Shown here piece by piece: positions 1,073-13,182 of a DNA stretch of 46,977 nt. The stretch's first letter is position 1, and each line of letters starts with the position of its first letter. The position numbers and the translations under genes were made by a program. The stretch lies in contig JAADII010000166.1 in NCBI GenBank assembly GCA_013151415.1, positions 1 through 46,977 of the forward strand. The letters are read 5' to 3'. Under the pieces are notes generated by a model. It saw only the letters and a list, made by a program, of their open reading frames with translations, was not told where the DNA came from and ran no database searches. The DNA is from Chloroflexota bacterium. GTDB lineage: Bacteria > Chloroflexota > Anaerolineae > J102.

Positions 1073-1133
1073 GCAGGAAAGCATCGTCTATCTTGAAAAA
1101 CCGACATGAAATCAAGCAATCGGAGTGACGATT

Positions 1134-4100
1134 ATGGAGTTGACGAGTGCGCCGACGTGGTTAGACTCACTCAACGAACGGCAGCTTGAAGCAGTGACAT
1201 ACCAGGAGGCTCCTCTTCTGGTTTTGGCCGGCCCCGGAAGCGGCAAAACCCGCATCATCACCCATCGCATCCCCTGGCTAATTCGTGAAAGAGACGCTCG
1301 ACCTGAATCTATTCTAGCGGTCACCTTCACCAACCGCGCGGCGGAAGAAATGCGCGACCGCCTGGAATCCATATTGGGCGAAGACGCGGGCCGCGTGTGG
1401 GTGTACACCTTCCATGCGGCGGCCGTGCGCATATTGCGCAAATTCGGTGAGCGTATTGGCATCGACCCAAACTTCGCCATTCTAGATGAAGAGGATCAGC
1501 GTCATCTCATCAACCACACTGTGCGGCAATTGGGGCTGAGCCGCGAGCATTATTCGGCGGGACGGGTGTTGAGTTATATTGGCGAGCGTAAAAACGCTCT
1601 CGCCGACCCAACCGAACCCTATCTCGACGCAGACCCGGCCTTAATTGGACTGGCCGAGAGCTACGAACAGCGTCTGCGCGAGCAAAACGCTCTGGATTTC
1701 GACGATCTCATTCGTTATGTTGTGCTTTTATTGCGTCGTGAAAAAGAGGTGCGCGACCACTATCACCACACGCTTCGTCACATTCTGGTGGATGAATACC
1801 AGGATATCAATTATGCTCAGTACGAATTGTTGAAGCTTCTGGCGCCATTGGGAGGCAGCATCACCGTGGTCGCAGACGATGATCAAGCCATTTATCGATG
1901 GCGCGGGTCAAAGCCCGAGCTCATCGATTCCTTCCGGCGCCGATATCATCCTCATGAGGTGCGCCTCGACATTAGCTATCGCTGCCCGCCCTCGATTCTG
2001 TATGGAGCGCAGGGATTGGTGAGCCGAAGCCGAGATTCCGACCATCGACGCGCCATGCGTAGCCACAAACGCGAGGACGCACCGATCTTTCACTACATTT
2101 TCCACGACATAGGTCAAGAACAACGCTGGTTGGTGGCGCTGGTGCGCAAACTCATCGAAGAGCGCGCTTACAAACCGGGGGATATCGCGGTCCTCTACCG
2201 GACCCATAGATTAGCCCAACCCGTTGAACAGGCGTTGCTCCAGGCGGGCTTCAAGGTGCAGCGGGTGCGCAAAGAGAGCTTTTTCGACCGTCGAACGGCG
2301 CGCGAAGTGGTGCGCTATATGCAACTCATGCGAATGCTCACCGATGAAAACTTCACCTCGGCCATCAATTTCCCAGTGCGTCTGGTGGATGAATTGACCA
2401 TGATCCATCTGCAACGTTTGGCCGAGAGGGAGGGCGTAAGCCTGGTGGACCTGGCGCGTCGCGCCGCAGACCACCCGGACATTAGTCCATTAACACGCGT
2501 GCATCTAAGCGAATTCATACGGCTGGTGGAGGAGGACTTGCCCGATCCATCGAGCGAGGTCGAACCAGCGCTTCAGCAAATTTTCGAGGTGCTGGCGGGG
2601 TTGCGCTCGCCCTGGCGCGAGAATGACATCCGTCTGTTAGAAGGCTTCATGGCCTTCACAGATCTCACCGAACAGGCCCAGGCGCTTGCAATAGCCATAC
2701 GCGAACAACGGCCTATCATCATTGTGCATGAAAACTCCCTCGATGCGAGGCTGGCTGCATTCATTCTCCAGGACGCGTTGAAGAAACACCTCGACGTAAT
2801 CGCCCGCACCATTACATCCGAGGCGTTGGCCGCGAACCCACCCGAACCCGAAGCCGCATTGATAACCCTGGGTTCGACCGAGTCCGCGTCCGCAGGCGAG
2901 ATCATCACGGTGGCGGATGACGAAGAGCGCGTTTATCCGCTCGTGATTTACGCCTGGCGTTTGGCCCAACGGCTGCTCATGCAATATGAAACGCAGATCG
3001 AAGGTCGTTTCGTTGTTTACGATGTCGAAACCACGGGCACGAACATCCGACGCGACGAGCTGGTGGAAATAGCAGCCGCTCGCTATGAACATCGCCAGCC
3101 CATCGCGCCCTCCTTCGAACAACTCATCCGTCCCCAGCGCGGCTACATTCCTCCGGCGGCCAGCAAGGTTCACGGCATTTATTTCGAAGACGTGGTGGAT
3201 GCGCCCGCCATCGAGCAGGTGTTGCCCGAATTTCTGGCTTATGTGGGCGAAGACGTCGTGGTCGGACACAACATCGCTCGTTTCGACAACCGATTCATCG
3301 ATCGCGCTTGCGGTCAGTTGTTCAACGGCAAAGGCTTTCATCCTCATTACATCGACACGCTACGCCTGGCCCGTCGGTTGCTCCCCGGCCTGCCTCGTTA
3401 CACTCTGACCTATCTACTCCAGACCCTGAACCTGGGCGATGAGAGCGACCACCGCGCGATGCACGACGTTGAACACACGGCCAATCTTTTCTATGCACTG
3501 GCCGATCGTCTGCTTGAGGAGCGAGAACGCGAATCATTGGTGGAATATTTGCCGTTGGTTGGCATGGGGCTTCTTAGTGTGGATGCAATCGCCGAAGATG
3601 AAAATCTGGCCCTATTGAGCGGGGCCGCCCGTTTATTGGCCGCCGGTCGCGGCCAAGCCGAAATCCGGCAGGCGATGGCCGCTTTGCCGCCCGAGTTCCA
3701 GGGGGAGGCGCAATCCGTTTACGAAAAAATCTGCGCACAACAGGCCCCCATCACCCGAGAAGATGAGGCCTGGGAAGAGATGCGGCAAGCCTTTTTCACC
3801 CATGCCAAAGCCTTTAGCCATTACTCTCATGACCATTCGTTGGCTGCATTCATCGATTATCAGGCTTTACTGACCAACCGCGATGCTTTTCGGCATATCG
3901 AAGAGGATAACGCTCTCACCTTGATGACGCTGCACAATGCCAAAGGGGCCGAGTTTCCGGTTGTGATCATCGTGGGCGTTGAGCAAGACAACCTTCCGCT
4001 TTGGCGTTCACTGGACGATCCCGAGGAATTGGCCGAGGAGCGTCGCGTGTTCTATGTGGGCATCACGCGCGCCAAGGACGCGGTCTATCTGTTCTCGGTG

Positions 4101-4217
4101 CGAGACCGAAACGATGGCTTCTTACGCGGCCCTTCGCCCTTTGCATTCGAGATACCCAACCGCTATGTGCGCCGCTTCCGCGTCGACGCGCACAATCGCG
4201 TGCGTGAAATGCGATAA
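1134..4217 (+). CDS. UvrD/Rep-type superfamily 1 helicase with an internal DnaQ-like (DEDDh) exonuclease domain
   Basis: A 1027-residue protein; the ATG at 1134 has GGAG about 8 bases upstream, preferred over a GTG at 1125. SF1A helicase motifs are clear: Q motif LNERQLEAV, Walker A GPGSGKT (33-39), Walker B DEYQD (about 220), QAIYRWRG (about 250), and motifs V/VI near 928-980 (TLHNAKGAEFP, VFYVGITRAKD). Between motif IV and motif V sits a complete DnaQ-family 3'-5' exonuclease module, about 625-790: YDVETTG (ExoI), GHNIARFD (ExoII) and DHRAMHDVEHT (ExoIII, H-x4-D). All four acidic residues and the catalytic His appear present. UvrD/PcrA proteins are usually 650-750 residues, so the extra length equals the insertion. 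The family unwinds DNA 3'-5'; the nuclease would degrade or proofread a 3' end. No operon partner: the next gene converges. Confidence 0.93.
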   Translation: MELTSAPTWLDSLNERQLEAVTYQEAPLLVLAGPGSGKTRIITHRIPWLIRERDARPESILAVTFTNRAAEEMRDRLESILGEDAGRVWVYTFHAAAVRILRKFGERIGIDPNFAILDEEDQRHLINHTVRQLGLSREHYSAGRVLSYIGERKNALADPTEPYLDADPALIGLAESYEQRLREQNALDFDDLIRYVVLLLRREKEVRDHYHHTLRHILVDEYQDINYAQYELLKLLAPLGGSITVVADDDQAIYRWRGSKPELIDSFRRRYHPHEVRLDISYRCPPSILYGAQGLVSRSRDSDHRRAMRSHKREDAPIFHYIFHDIGQEQRWLVALVRKLIEERAYKPGDIAVLYRTHRLAQPVEQALLQAGFKVQRVRKESFFDRRTAREVVRYMQLMRMLTDENFTSAINFPVRLVDELTMIHLQRLAEREGVSLVDLARRAADHPDISPLTRVHLSEFIRLVEEDLPDPSSEVEPALQQIFEVLAGLRSPWRENDIRLLEGFMAFTDLTEQAQALAIAIREQRPIIIVHENSLDARLAAFILQDALKKHLDVIARTITSEALAANPPEPEAALITLGSTESASAGEIITVADDEERVYPLVIYAWRLAQRLLMQYETQIEGRFVVYDVETTGTNIRRDELVEIAAARYEHRQPIAPSFEQLIRPQRGYIPPAASKVHGIYFEDVVDAPAIEQVLPEFLAYVGEDVVVGHNIARFDNRFIDRACGQLFNGKGFHPHYIDTLRLARRLLPGLPRYTLTYLLQTLNLGDESDHRAMHDVEHTANLFYALADRLLEERERESLVEYLPLVGMGLLSVDAIAEDENLALLSGAARLLAAGRGQAEIRQAMAALPPEFQGEAQSVYEKICAQQAPITREDEAWEEMRQAFFTHAKAFSHYSHDHSLAAFIDYQALLTNRDAFRHIEEDNALTLMTLHNAKGAEFPVVIIVGVEQDNLPLWRSLDDPEELAEERRVFYVGITRAKDAVYLFSVRDRNDGFLRGPSPFAFEIPNRYVRRFRVDAHNRVREMR

Positions 4218-7823: not shown

Positions 7824-9299
7824 TCAAAATCCGGCAGCGATAACCAGGTTCACCGATTGGCCAGCCCAGGTGATGAAGGGCTGAGCGAAAATGCCAATGA
7901 CGAAAACCATGATCGCGCAAATGACCAAAGCGGAGCCCAATCCGGCGCCGCCCAACGAAATCTGCGGCCCTTCATCTTCCTCATCGACAAAGAACATATA
8001 CCGCACCACGTTCAAATAGTAGGCCGCCGCGATGACCACATTGACCGCGCCCACTGCGGCGAGGACGAGCATATCTTGTTGCACGGCCGCGCCCAGCACA
8101 AAAAACTTGCCAATGAACCCGGCCGTGGGCGGAATGCCAGCCAATGAGAGCAAGAAAATGGTCATGAGCAGCGTGAGCGCGGGCGCGCGGCGCACCAAAC
8201 CCGCATACGCCTCAATATCGTTGCTGTGCGCCTGGCGCTCCACAGCCATTACGGTCAAGAAAGCGCCCACGTTGGTGAAGATATAGGCAATGATGTAGAT
8301 GAGCAACCCGTTGAGTCCGTTGAACGTGGGGTCAGAGCCGATGGCCGCAAGACCGATGAGGATATAACCGGCGTGAGCCACCGACGAGTAGGCCAACATG
8401 CGCTTGACGCTGCGCTGCTTCAAAGCCACGAAATTGGCCACCGACATGGTGAGAATGGCCAGGGCCGCGAGGTAATTCGTCCAATCGGTCGCGAATTCGG
8501 GCATCGCGATGATAAGCACGCGCGCGGCCACGGCGAATCCGGCCGCCTTCGACGCGGTGGAGAGGTAGGCCGTGACAGGGGTGGGCGCGCCGTCGTAAGT
8601 GTCGGGCGCCCAGTGATGGAAGGGAACCCAGGTGGCCTTGAAACCAAAACCCACCACCAGGAAAATAATGGCCGCGATGCCGAGATAGAAATTGGCGCCC
8701 GAAGCTGAAAGCGCGCGACCAACCGCGGCGAGGTCGGTGGCTCCGGTCGCGCCGTAAAGCAGCGAGATCCCATACAACATGACCGCTCCGGCCGTGGCGC
8801 CGTAGAGGAAATATTTCGTGGCGGCCTCCTCTGAAAGCTTGTCCCCGCGTATGAATCCGGCCAGAATATAGGAGGTGATGGAGAGAAACTCGATGCCGAG
8901 ATAGACAAGAATCAGGTTGGTGGCGCTTACGGTGATGGAAATGGCCAGGGTCGCGAACACAAGCAAGGCGTAGAATTCGCCAAGGTATTTGCTGCGGCCC
9001 TTCATATAGTTCATCGAGGCCAAAATCACCAGCGCGACGCCTATGGTCGTGACCGCCTTAAAGAACAGCGCGAATGCATCCACGGCCATGGTGCTGGCGA
9101 TGACCGCGTTGACGCCCGAAGCGGCCAGGTTCAAGGCCGCGACAAAAGCGAGCAAAAGGCCGACCAAGGCGACAATGGCCGACGCGCGGCCATCGGTGTT
9201 TCGTCTGAGCGCCAGATCAACGCCCAACGCGGCAAAGCCAGTGAGCAGGAGAATAAGTTCTGGTGCGAGGAATAGGGTGTCGGATATGTTCAAGGTCAT
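7824..9299 (-). CDS. nuoN: NADH-quinone oxidoreductase subunit N
   Basis: 491 residues, about 14 membrane helices. One of the three antiporter-like proton-pumping subunits of complex I. Family features include EFLSITSYILAGF, the conserved Lys region FGFKATWVPFHHWAPDTYDGAP, and KRMLAYSSVAHAGY. It is the last gene of the operon, 12 bases after nuoM. The AAAGGAG ribosome site is very close to the ATG at 9299 (about 3 bases); a TTG two codons later would give better spacing, so the true start may differ by two residues. The operon terminator follows at 7655. Confidence 0.95.
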   Translation of the reverse strand: MTLNISDTLFLAPELILLLTGFAALGVDLALRRNTDGRASAIVALVGLLLAFVAALNLAASGVNAVIASTMAVDAFALFFKAVTTIGVALVILASMNYMKGRSKYLGEFYALLVFATLAISITVSATNLILVYLGIEFLSITSYILAGFIRGDKLSEEAATKYFLYGATAGAVMLYGISLLYGATGATDLAAVGRALSASGANFYLGIAAIIFLVVGFGFKATWVPFHHWAPDTYDGAPTPVTAYLSTASKAAGFAVAARVLIIAMPEFATDWTNYLAALAILTMSVANFVALKQRSVKRMLAYSSVAHAGYILIGLAAIGSDPTFNGLNGLLIYIIAYIFTNVGAFLTVMAVERQAHSNDIEAYAGLVRRAPALTLLMTIFLLSLAGIPPTAGFIGKFFVLGAAVQQDMLVLAAVGAVNVVIAAAYYLNVVRYMFFVDEEDEGPQISLGGAGLGSALVICAIMVFVIGIFAQPFITWAGQSVNLVIAAGF

Positions 9300-9311
9300 C
9301 TCTCCTTTGGT

Positions 9312-10895
9312 TTAGAAGAGTGCGCGGAGAGTTTCGACGGCGAATTGATTGAAGTACACCAACACCAACGAAGGCAACACGCCAAAGAGGATCATGAAAA
9401 AGACCAACGGCCAAAGCGTGATCTTCTCGAAACGGGCCATGTCGGTGGGGCCATCTGCGTGCTCACCCTCGATGGTGGTCCAATGGGTCCAGCGCTTGGC
9501 GTCATAGGGGCCTAAGAACACGTTTTGAATAATGCGGTAGAGAATATAGGCCGCGGTGATGACAATGCCGATGACGCCCACGACCGCAAGGATGGGAACC
9601 ACGCCAAACGCGCCTCGGAAGGTGAAAAATTCGGCCCAGAACCCCGCCAGCCCGGGCAGGCCCAAAGAGGCGAAACCAGCGAACATCATGGTCGCGTAAA
9701 AATAGGGCGTGAGACCGCTCAAACCGCCAAACTTGGCCAGGTCGCGAGTATGGGCCCGTTCGTAAATGACGCCGACCAAGAAGAACAAGGCGCCCGTAAT
9801 CAGACCGTGGAAAAACATTTGCAGAGTCGCGCCGTTAAGCGCCATGGCCGCGGTGTCGAACAAGCCGCCCTGATCCGGATCGAAGTTCAAGGCCCAGGCC
9901 GCCGCGCCAATGCCGAGGAGGACATAACCCATGTGACTCACCGAGGAGTAGGCGATCAGCCGTTTCAGATCCTTTTGGGCCAATGATACAAACGCGCCGT
10001 AGACAATGCCAATGACGCCAATGAGCGCCACGACCCAACCGAATTGGCGAAACGAATCGGTGAACATGGGCATGAGAATGCGCAAGAAGCCATACGCGCC
10101 CAACTTGAGCAGCACGCCCGCCAGAATGACCGAGCCGGCCGTGGGCGCGGCCGTGTGGGCGTCGGGAAGCCAGGTGTGGAACGGCCAGGCCGGCACCTTG
10201 ATGGCGAATGCCACGAAAAAGGCCCAAAACGAAAGCGTGGCGTAAAGGGGCATATTCGCCCACACGCCTTTGGCCGCGGCGTCGATAATGTCGAATGTGC
10301 CGGTGCTAAGATAGACGCCAATGATGGCTAGCAGCATAAACACCGACCCGGCCAACGTGTAAAGGAAGAACTTGATGGCTGCGTATTGCGGCCGATCCTT
10401 TTCCTGGCCCCAGATGCCGATCATGAAATACATGGGCACCAGGCCGATCTCCCAAAACACGTAGAAAAGCACCAGGTCGAGGGCGATGAACACGCCGAAC
10501 ATGCCCGTGGCGAGGAACAGGAAGAGGGCGAAAAACTCGCGCACGCGCGTGCGAATCACCCGGGTCGAGTAGTAAATGCCCAGTGTGGTCAGCAATGCCG
10601 TCAGGAAGATCAAGGGCACGCTGAGCCCGTCCGCGCCCACATGATAGTTCACGCCCAGAGAGGGGATCCAGGAAACCCTGATCTCATAAGCCATGCCGCC
10701 CACGCCTGTGGCCACATAATTCATGAAATAATCCGCAGCCAACCACACAGACAGCGCCAGGGGGATCAAGCTCCAAAGCACCGAGAAGCGCTTGATCAGG
10801 CCTTCGTTGTTCTTGGGCAAAAGCAGCACCACGATGCTGCCAATCAAGGGAAGGAAGGTGATGAGAGTCAAAACCGAGTTGTCAAGAAAGTTCAT
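9312..10895 (-). CDS. nuoM: NADH-quinone oxidoreductase subunit M
   Basis: 527 residues, about 14 membrane helices, usual length. Antiporter-like subunit in the middle of the complex I membrane arm. Diagnostic stretches are ADGLSVPLIFLTALLT, LFYVFWEIGLVPMYFMIG with the conserved Glu of helix 5, KVPAWPFHTWLPDAHTAAPT with the pumping Lys, and LKRLIAYSSVSHMGYV. AGGAG lies 6 bases before the ATG. It sits between nuoL (52 bases upstream) and nuoN (12 bases downstream). Nothing is missing from the core motifs. Confidence 0.96.
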   Translation of the reverse strand: MNFLDNSVLTLITFLPLIGSIVVLLLPKNNEGLIKRFSVLWSLIPLALSVWLAADYFMNYVATGVGGMAYEIRVSWIPSLGVNYHVGADGLSVPLIFLTALLTTLGIYYSTRVIRTRVREFFALFLFLATGMFGVFIALDLVLFYVFWEIGLVPMYFMIGIWGQEKDRPQYAAIKFFLYTLAGSVFMLLAIIGVYLSTGTFDIIDAAAKGVWANMPLYATLSFWAFFVAFAIKVPAWPFHTWLPDAHTAAPTAGSVILAGVLLKLGAYGFLRILMPMFTDSFRQFGWVVALIGVIGIVYGAFVSLAQKDLKRLIAYSSVSHMGYVLLGIGAAAWALNFDPDQGGLFDTAAMALNGATLQMFFHGLITGALFFLVGVIYERAHTRDLAKFGGLSGLTPYFYATMMFAGFASLGLPGLAGFWAEFFTFRGAFGVVPILAVVGVIGIVITAAYILYRIIQNVFLGPYDAKRWTHWTTIEGEHADGPTDMARFEKITLWPLVFFMILFGVLPSLVLVYFNQFAVETLRALF

Positions 10896-10947
10896 TGAAA
10901 TCTCCTCCTCGGCAAGTTGGGAGATGAGATCGAGAGTGGGATGATGA

Positions 10948-13182
10948 CTAGAATATGAACTCGACTGCGGCCATAAGGACGAGCACGGCCAGCAGCATGA
11001 TCAAGAGGTATTGTTGGATCTGTCCATTTTGGACCAGGCGCAACACCGAACCGGTGGCGTGAGCCACCAGGCCTGTGCCATTGACCGCGGCGTCGATGAT
11101 GTATTCGTCGACAAAGCGTCGCAACGAGCGAGCCAGCCAACGACCGAACGAGCCCACCGCATTGACAATGGCGTCGATGACCCCGCGATCGAAGCGGGCT
11201 GCAAAACGCGCCAACCACAACACCGGTCGCACGGCGATAAAGTAGTACAATTCGTCGAAATAATACTTGTTTCGCAGCACGGTGTGCACCGGCCCCAGCC
11301 AACGCCGCAAAGGATCGACATCACCCGCTTGAAGCGGCTTCCGACCATACACCAGCCAGGCCAGGAATATGCCGCCCAGGGCCGCAATCACCGAAATGCC
11401 GACGGGCATTGGGTTGAAGGGCAACTCTTTGTAATGCAGGCCATAGGTTTCGGCCAACTCGCCCATGAAATGGCCCAACGGATTGCCCACCACATTGCCC
11501 ACAATGGGCCAGGTTGTTTCGATGCCAGACCAACCGGCCGCGATGGCGAAAACCGCCAACACCATAAGCGGCGCAGTCATGCTCTTTACGCTTTCGGGCG
11601 CGTGCGCGGCCGCCTCAGAGCGGGGCTGACCAAAGAAGGTGAGGAAAATCTGACGAAACGTGTAAAAGGCGGTGAGCAACGCGGCCGCGGCCAGCGTCCA
11701 GAACACCAGGGTATGCCCCGTATACCAGGCCTCGGCCAGGATCAGGTCCTTGGACCAGAATCCAGCCGTAATGAGCGGAAAGCCGGAAAGGGCCGCGCCG
11801 CCGATGATGAATGTCCAGCCCGTCGCGGGCATGCGACGCAACAAACCGCCCATATTCATCATATCTTGCGGATCGAAGTATTCCTCTTCCTTGTGATGGT
11901 CGTCGCCATCGTGGTTATGCGCGTGTGCATGATGATGCCCGTGCTCGACGCCATGAATCACGGACCCGGAGCCGAGGAACAGCAACGCCTTGAAAAACGC
12001 GTGCATGATGAGATGGAAAATGGCCGCCACCCAGGCGCCAATGCCCAACGCAGCAAACATGTAACCCAATTGCGAAATTGTGGAATAAGCCAGCACGCGC
12101 TTGATATCATTTTGCGCCACGGCGATGGTTGCGGCAAATAGGGCGGTGAACGCGCCGATGAAGGTCACGAACATGGCTGCGCCGTTGGCGCCATGTTCGT
12201 AGGCGTTGAACACCGGCCACATGCGCGCGATGAGATAAACGCCGGCCGAAACCATGGTCGCGGCGTGAATGAGAGCCGAGACCGGCGTGGGGCCTTCCAT
12301 GGCGTCGGGAAGCCACACATGCAAGGGGAACTGCGCGGATTTGCCGATCGACCCCCAAAAGATGAGGATGGAGATGACCACGGCCGCAGACACAGCGCCG
12401 ATCACCGGCAAGGTCATGACGCTTTCAGCCAAATGCTCCAGCACTTCGGGTTGGAACAGCTCCCTGAAATTGAGCTGGCCTGTGTAGAGCCAGAGATACA
12501 CCAAACCAATAAGGAGCAGCACATCGCCCACGCGCGTGGTGATGAACGCCTTCAACCCGGCCTTCGGCGGCGTGATCTGTTTGGGATCGGGGTAAGTCTT
12601 GTTGTACCAAAAGCCAATGAGCAAATAGGAGCACAAGCCCATGATCTCCCAAAAAATAAACAGCATCAACAAGTTGTCGGCCACCACCAACCCCAACATG
12701 CCAGTGGCGAAAAGGGAGATGAAGGCGAAGAAACGGCTATATTTGGGATCCAGGTTCTGCGCCTTGGCCTCCTCCACCTGAGCCTGCACAAAAGGCGGCA
12801 ACGACCCCTTGCCCAATAATTCTTCCATGAAGCCGGGAAAGGTCATGTAGCCTGTGCTATAGATGAAGATCATGGCCAGCACAATGCCCACCATGAACAA
12901 CATGATCGCGGTCAGGCCATCCACCAAAACGCCCATAGTGAAGAACGATGCGCCGGTGGGCAAATAGGGGATGGACAAATCGAACGGCTCGACAAGCGAT
13001 CGTTCAGGCGTGCGAAAAGCGCTGATGGCCACAACCCAAGAGAGCAGCCAGCCGACGAACACCCCAATCAAGGCCACCGTCGAGCTCAGGCGCTTGTTTT
13101 CGCGGGTGAAAAAGATAATGAAAAAGGCCAGCAGTGTGGGCAGAGGAATCAGCCACGCAAGATTGAATATAGATTCGGACAT
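10948..13182 (-). CDS. nuoL: NADH-quinone oxidoreductase subunit L with a His-rich loop
   Basis: 744 residues, longer than the roughly 610-660 of many NuoL proteins. Distal antiporter-like subunit with the long lateral helix at the C-terminus. Core motifs are LLMLFIFWEIMGLCSYLL, SAQFPLHVWLPDAMEGPTPV with the pumping Lys region, and IKRVLAYSTISQLGYM. An unusual insertion at about residues 408-430 follows GSVIHGVEH: it holds ten or more His with Asp and Glu (GHHHAHAHNHDGDDHHKEEE), just before DPQDMMNMGGL. This loop could bind a metal (inference). The last 150 residues hold the amphipathic and terminal helices. The gene follows the small x-gene and precedes nuoM. Confidence 0.95.
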   Translation of the reverse strand: MSESIFNLAWLIPLPTLLAFFIIFFTRENKRLSSTVALIGVFVGWLLSWVVAISAFRTPERSLVEPFDLSIPYLPTGASFFTMGVLVDGLTAIMLFMVGIVLAMIFIYSTGYMTFPGFMEELLGKGSLPPFVQAQVEEAKAQNLDPKYSRFFAFISLFATGMLGLVVADNLLMLFIFWEIMGLCSYLLIGFWYNKTYPDPKQITPPKAGLKAFITTRVGDVLLLIGLVYLWLYTGQLNFRELFQPEVLEHLAESVMTLPVIGAVSAAVVISILIFWGSIGKSAQFPLHVWLPDAMEGPTPVSALIHAATMVSAGVYLIARMWPVFNAYEHGANGAAMFVTFIGAFTALFAATIAVAQNDIKRVLAYSTISQLGYMFAALGIGAWVAAIFHLIMHAFFKALLFLGSGSVIHGVEHGHHHAHAHNHDGDDHHKEEEYFDPQDMMNMGGLLRRMPATGWTFIIGGAALSGFPLITAGFWSKDLILAEAWYTGHTLVFWTLAAAALLTAFYTFRQIFLTFFGQPRSEAAAHAPESVKSMTAPLMVLAVFAIAAGWSGIETTWPIVGNVVGNPLGHFMGELAETYGLHYKELPFNPMPVGISVIAALGGIFLAWLVYGRKPLQAGDVDPLRRWLGPVHTVLRNKYYFDELYYFIAVRPVLWLARFAARFDRGVIDAIVNAVGSFGRWLARSLRRFVDEYIIDAAVNGTGLVAHATGSVLRLVQNGQIQQYLLIMLLAVLVLMAAVEFIF

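Follow-up and report, generated by a model that had tools for sequence, protein, structure and literature searches.

A reading frame in a Chloroflexota contig raises the question of whether a helicase can carry a nuclease inside its chain, and of what such an enzyme would do with the two activities. The window analyzed here is a whole stretch of 46,977 nucleotides (contig JAADII010000166.1, assembly GCA_013151415.1). The encoded protein is a full SF1A helicase of the UvrD/PcrA type whose motifs IV and V are separated by an intact DEDDh exonuclease (aa ~627-796) (Table 1). The stop codon of the frame, read from the sequence, ends at position 4217, and a GTG at 1125, in frame with the ATG at 1134, is the earliest possible start. 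Residue numbers of the protein are counted from this GTG; 3 is subtracted for ATG-based numbering.

Table 1. Positions of the fused helicase gene and its parts in the window
Feature	Position	Strand	Details and basis
Whole CDS, UvrD-RecJ-like-DEDDh helicase	1134..4217	+	1027 aa counted from ATG; Pfam, homologs
Shine-Dalgarno-like GGAG	1122..1125	+	8 bases 5' of ATG 1134; read directly from sequence
Helicase domains 1A/1B	1161..1958	+	aa 13-278; Walker A AGPGSGKT, DEYQD, motif III; PF00580
2B helix-loop-helix NFPVRLVDELT at canonical RGIG site	2367..2399	+	G replaced by D422; alignment
RecJ-like DHH domain, part 1, predicted catalytically degenerate	2637..3002	+	aa 505-626; HHalign to RecJ, AF2 alpha/beta fold
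DEDDh 3'-5' exonuclease domain	3003..3512	+	aa 627-796; PF00929, structural match to epsilon
ExoI D633 + E635 (YDVETTG)	3021..3029	+	D 50/50, E 49/50 homologs
ExoII D721 (GHNIARFDNR)	3285..3287	+	50/50 homologs
ExoIII H776 + D781	3450..3467	+	49/50 each
RecJ-like domain, part 2 (YLPLVGMGLL...DEN ~ RecJ LDLVALGTIAD...GEN)	3513..3674	+	aa 797-850; HHalign collinearity
End of 2B + domain 2A, motifs V and VI	3756..4202	+	aa 878-1026; UvrD_C
Separation-pin beta-hairpin, shortened by 3 residues relative to canonical PcrA	4098..4136	+	alignment with 18 canonical helicases

Domain architecture of the fused helicase

Pfam divides the protein into a UvrD-helicase match (aa 16-274, E 1e-78), a single UvrD_C match split across aa 280-990 (E 1e-41) and an RNase_T match (PF00929, aa 630-789, E 1e-32). 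NCBIfam likewise assigns both ends to PcrA/UvrD and the middle to DEDD exonucleases, with no whole-protein equivalog reaching its cut-off among the matches listed, and sequence matches in the PDB make the same division. Motor motifs I-VI of SF1A are present in the UvrD fold by Pfam, alignment and model. Residues K41, D223, E224, Q254, R260, R973 and R982 are kept in every ungapped member of a 50-homolog alignment, the two apparent losses of K41 being alignment gaps.

An AlphaFold2 model, computed from an alignment of the protein with related loci, has a mean pLDDT of 91.2 and a pTM of 0.87. With VIA-align, it matches 622 of the 645 residues of DNA-bound Deinococcus radiodurans UvrD (Z 41.4, rmsd 4.3); this closed form is the best fit, and the open apo form of UvrD (3LFU) fits more poorly (rmsd 12.2). 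Because nearly the whole UvrD fold is matched, 2B is taken to be retained and interrupted, not replaced. The inserted segment, aa 627-794, superimposes on Escherichia coli epsilon (2ido) with Z 24.5 and an rmsd of 1.4 Å over 164 residues. The model holds a UvrD fold together with a complete epsilon-like exonuclease; a preliminary description, made from the letters alone, had proposed structure prediction as a check. That description had placed a DnaQ-type module between motifs IV and V, in the 2B/2A region, with all ExoI, ExoII and ExoIII residues. Pfam and the model agree on the internal split, the model locates it inside 2B, and the five residues are found and are nearly invariant among the 50 homologs. 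Near-invariance across two phyla is best explained by purifying selection on catalysis.

One relative in a Poribacteria-phylum genome (L212:7799-10912) keeps the architecture but not the whole DEDDh site: the last D is gone, and the loss probably extends to three residues. It stands out among the aligned homologs. Judging from its sequence, it is probably a natural nuclease-dead version of the fused helicase, and the retention of such a protein suggests that the arm may also serve noncatalytically.

The exonuclease is not the sole insert, as had been supposed, since RecJ-like sequence borders it on both sides. Pfam names no domain in the region preceding it (aa ~505-626). Folded alone, this region reaches a pLDDT of 79, and in a fold search with VIA its match to RecJ (5f54, Z 11.6) was tied with a de novo designed protein, with SIS isomerases close behind. 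The lone fold decides nothing, given that a designed protein and SIS isomerases match too; what separated RecJ was profile-profile comparison with HHalign, in which the domain profile was compared with RecJ proteins from the same genomes. Part 1 matched RecJ 84-242 at 95.4% (P 1.9e-8). Profiles built from Poribacteria only and Chloroflexota only, run independently, gave 90% and 87%, and the controls (reversed RecJ, shuffled RecJ, PcrA, exonuclease) gave 0.1-1.3%. When the exonuclease was excised and parts 1 and 2 were joined, the match was collinear with RecJ 77-291 and rose to 96.8% (P 2.1e-10; controls 0.0-0.1%). Part 2 by itself is weak (7.8%, P 0.004) and draws its support from this collinearity. 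The longer and stronger match obtained once the exonuclease is removed points to the order UvrD 2B { RecJ-like { DEDDh } }: on profile evidence, the exonuclease sits within a shrunken RecJ-like DHH domain, itself within 2B. Of the RecJ catalytic motifs (DxD, D, DHH, D), one motif I Asp is left (D540) and the DHH is gone; a conserved Pro810 occupies the site of the Asp in RecJ LDLVALG. The loss of DHH, together with Pro810, means that the RecJ-like part should not cut.

The arm that carries this insert is altered where UvrD would contact duplex DNA. The 2B motif R-G-I-G, whose last G is present in 18/18 canonical relatives, is replaced in the fused family by x-x-[IV]-D, with D in 48/50; the GIG motif is lost in all fused-family members aligned, and the pin hairpin is shortened by three residues in nearly all fused rows compared. 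For the C-terminal Tudor domain, Pfam gives no PF21196 match up to E 10 in the window protein, whereas the canonical PcrA-type proteins L004 and L038 match. Against the PcrA equivalog TIGR01073, the window protein scores 459.9 bits, below the cut-off of 911, which some PcrA proteins from Poribacteria and Chloroflexota lineages also fail to reach. In D. radiodurans UvrD, the G424T substitution reduces binding to the duplex and is a strong stimulus to 3'-5' unwinding, and G426T lowers unwinding (PMC3797037). By analogy, the 2B changes of the fused family may act as G424T does; alternatively, unwinding may be weaker without the second Gly.

An intact motor, an intact DEDDh site and the nesting 2B{RecJ-like DHH{DEDDh}} are accordingly demonstrated at the level of alignment and structure prediction. 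The preliminary interpretation was borne out on the internal placement and the DEDDh site; it had overlooked the RecJ-like carrier, the altered 2B duplex contact, the absent Tudor tail and the canonical PcrA that is encoded alongside.

Distribution, genomic context and history

When 41 genomes were searched with the full-length protein, the architecture recurred at 54-60% identity throughout the window's own family, and two other families gave 41-46%. With a profile of the insert, 18/20 genomes of the own family, which belongs to Caldilineales, are positive; the two negative genomes are 81% and 72% complete. At E<=1e-40, the insert occurs in 31/396 genomes of the class, with families f16, f18, f23, f26, f31 and f32 among those represented, and a phylum-wide Chloroflexota sample added two matches outside the class (families f70 and f124); it is patchy in eight Chloroflexota families other than the window's own. 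In the Poribacteria phylum, 75/85 genomes match, mostly with a single copy of ~1055 aa. The architecture was confirmed on individual loci, beyond profile matches. The suggestion that the enzyme is widespread in Chloroflexota therefore does not hold in general; it is near-universal in its own family and in Poribacteria, and the same layout recurs across Chloroflexota families, as was anticipated for a conserved architecture. Chance or misassembly is ruled out by recurrence in many independent genomes.

Strict cut-offs yielded no insert match in 398 genomes of Pseudomonadota (the phylum of a Roseomonas genome, G833) or in 12 genomes from other phyla. A contig scan returned one Poribacteria locus only; its sensitivity is low, and it is hardly informative on other phyla. 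Among viral, phage and plasmid sequences there were only general exonucleases or helicases and no complete fused enzyme. Two Poribacteria-lineage genomes hold two copies each: tandem and diverged in sequence in G754 of that phylum (L207:5475-8675 and 8873-12073), and on different contigs in G753.

Downstream of the gene in the window, Pfam identifies a tRNA_edit-domain (tRNA-editing) protein and a DUF5656 protein; no neighbor gene is conserved across both phyla among 41 loci. A mobile or defense gene is unsupported by the neighbors and by the phage and plasmid collections. Repair genes were surveyed in 18 genomes, two of which (G028 and G029) are contrast genomes that lack the fused enzyme. 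Canonical PcrA is full-length in 17/18 and is present in the eighteenth (G763) as two pieces in one frame; with a PcrA-type gene in all 18, replacement of canonical PcrA is ruled out. MutS was found in 18/18 and RecJ in 17/18. AddAB-sized PD-(D/E)XK proteins co-occur in the tested Poribacteria and in most tested own-family genomes; three genomes (G007, G034, G036) gave short PDDEXK matches only, and AddAB may be absent from them. Replacement of AddAB or RecJ as a general rule is ruled out by these co-occurring proteins and by the RecJ count. MutS also occurs in genomes without the fused enzyme, which makes a link to mismatch repair only an analogy. Mismatch processing and the sensing of helicase conformation, both raised in the preliminary description, are conjectures. 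With canonical PcrA and MutS alongside and no conserved neighbors, the gene looks like an extra housekeeping enzyme.

In a helicase-core tree, a long branch (support 100) divides the 34 fused sequences from the 18 canonical helicases, and the Poribacteria and Chloroflexota rows form separate groups. The exonuclease tree also separates the two phyla (support 96 each); a single origin relative to other exonucleases is not firm there (2 changes, long outgroup branches). These sequence trees would fit one old fusion inherited mainly within lineages, and transfer between Poribacteria and Chloroflexota is possible.

Two MutS frames encountered in the survey (G014:C532:843-4682 and G036:C111:7393-11229; 1304 and 1335 aa) contain ~1.3 kb of extra sequence at profile position ~605 and are possible inteins.

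A proposed mechanism and its rivals

The reading we favor, whose chances we judge to be evenly balanced, is that of an SF1A motor, driven by ATP in the 3'-5' direction, whose built-in 3'-5' exonuclease degrades the motor's own tracking strand. Coupling, polarity, substrate and pathway we infer by analogy with the UvrD, DEDDh and RecJ families. The motor would load at a 3' single-stranded tail, or on the 3' side of a nick or gap, and would track 3'-5', peeling its tracking strand from the complement. The RecJ-like pseudonuclease may grip single-stranded DNA, as RecJ/Cdc45 folds do, and offer the 3' end to the DEDDh site for degradation. One polypeptide would then unwind and remove one 3'-ended strand, comparable to UvrD acting together with ExoX or ExoI in repair excision. 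Contact of 2B with the duplex is described as autoinhibitory (PMC13238157). The altered duplex contact and the short pin suggest a conversion of 2B, formerly a clamp on the duplex with an autoinhibitory effect, into an arm for the nuclease, whose rotation could switch trimming on and off. The enzyme would act beside canonical PcrA, MutS and, where present, AddAB and RecJ, not instead of them. Only tentatively do we extend this to a machine that unwinds and excises by itself: a RecJ-derived, Cdc45-like single-strand clamp, itself a pseudonuclease, would sit in the UvrD 2B domain and hand the 3' end to the DEDDh site, 2B rotation would be the nuclease switch, and in Poribacteria and Caldilineales the protein would be an excision enzyme of the lineage core.

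DEDDh folds can also act on RNA. A second reading, which we consider somewhat unlikely, has the exonuclease in 2B trim another 3' end (nascent at a stalled fork, a 3' flap or R-loop RNA) during clearing or remodeling of the fork by the motor; 2B rotation would then switch between two alternative activities, which would not be coupled on one strand. The 2B domain of UvrD swivels by ~160 degrees and sits on the duplex side in UvrD-DNA complexes (PMC13238157), and it is this closed, DNA-bound form that matches the model best; such a position may favor a 3' end other than that of the tracking strand. Weighing on the other side, the Tudor tail for RNA polymerase binding seen in L004 and L038 was not found.

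It is improbable that both inserted folds, the exonuclease and the RecJ-like one, serve only to bind DNA or to regulate and catalyze little or nothing in vivo. The RecJ-like part lacks catalytic motifs in every member seen and one member has lost DEDDh residues, but all five DEDDh residues are kept in 49/50 homologs across two phyla. An AddAB/RecBCD-like role in double-strand-break end resection, which AddA and RecB bring to mind by also combining helicase and nuclease in one chain, is very improbable in view of the different type and position of the nuclease and of the AddAB-sized proteins that share most of the tested genomes. The PADLOC GajB models score the helicase part, but as general UvrD matches, and an anti-phage helicase-nuclease of the Gabija or a similar type is hardly credible for a gene that has no conserved neighbors, is near-universal in two lineages, forms clades that track lineage and is not found complete in phage or plasmid collections. 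The partner that would be expected next to GajB is GajA, an OLD-type nuclease; on the downstream side of the window gene, Pfam names the tRNA_edit and DUF5656 proteins.

Relation to known helicases and nucleases

With UvrD/PcrA/Rep helicases of SF1A, the fused enzyme shares the whole fold, including 2B, and all motor motifs; it differs in the ~370-aa nested 2B insert, the replaced GIG, the shorter pin, the missing Tudor tail and its separate deep clade. The fold and all five residues are common to DEDDh exonucleases (epsilon/DnaQ, ExoX, the PolC exonuclease), which stand alone or are bound to polymerases, whereas here the domain is embedded in a helicase arm. ExoDinG, such as Staphylococcus aureus DinG, likewise joins a DEDDh exonuclease and a helicase in a single chain, but it is an SF2 helicase of 5'-3' polarity with an N-terminal exonuclease and no RecJ-like part, while the fused enzyme is SF1A with an internal exonuclease; the DinG models of NCBIfam match only the exonuclease part of the window protein. 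In SaDinG, a helicase-DEDDh protein of this other superfamily, both activities are needed for crosslink repair (PMC12345164). The DHH sequence collinear with RecJ 77-291 relates the insert to the RecJ/Cdc45 superfamily, and a dead form tied to a helicase recalls Cdc45, but here the domain is shrunken, has lost the DHH motif, is interrupted by the DEDDh exonuclease and would lie inside a UvrD 2B domain. AddAB, RecBCD and AdnAB also combine an SF1A helicase and a nuclease in one chain; theirs is a C-terminal PD-(D/E)XK nuclease, for which Pfam gave no PDDEXK match up to E 10 in the window protein, and they work as multisubunit complexes. In the solved comparators AddAB/RecBCD and ExoDinG the nuclease is terminal, in agreement with what the preliminary description said of known fusions. 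That description also called the enzyme possibly unstudied. The open-access literature, a scope outside which most subscription papers lie, yielded no paper on a UvrD helicase whose interior holds a DEDDh or RecJ-like domain.

The role of UvrD 2B has long been argued, as a duplex clamp, an autoinhibitor or a dimer interface. Because a nuclease is seated in 2B and the duplex-binding motif is altered, arm movement in this enzyme may be readable as nuclease activity. Three excision folds that are usually separate proteins (UvrD, a DEDDh exonuclease and RecJ) appear to be combined in one chain, and in the largely uncultured phylum Poribacteria the fused helicase is a near-core gene.

Other UvrD proteins encountered in the searches have layouts of their own. 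In UBP16/Wallbacteria MAGs, motif III of a UvrD/PcrA (L038:5977-9327) is interrupted by an intein (PF14890, E 2e-14) that separates DDDQ from SIY, and inteins at the same spot in L046 and L048 are judged from the same gap only. Own-family genomes encode another UvrD (L234:331-3054 and L235:9-3116), whose long N-terminal part includes SNSDAHSP and resembles a fusion of the PHP/EndoQ type; at E 0.001, Pfam recognized no more than the UvrD part. Many of the matches among L032-L077 share a similar layout.
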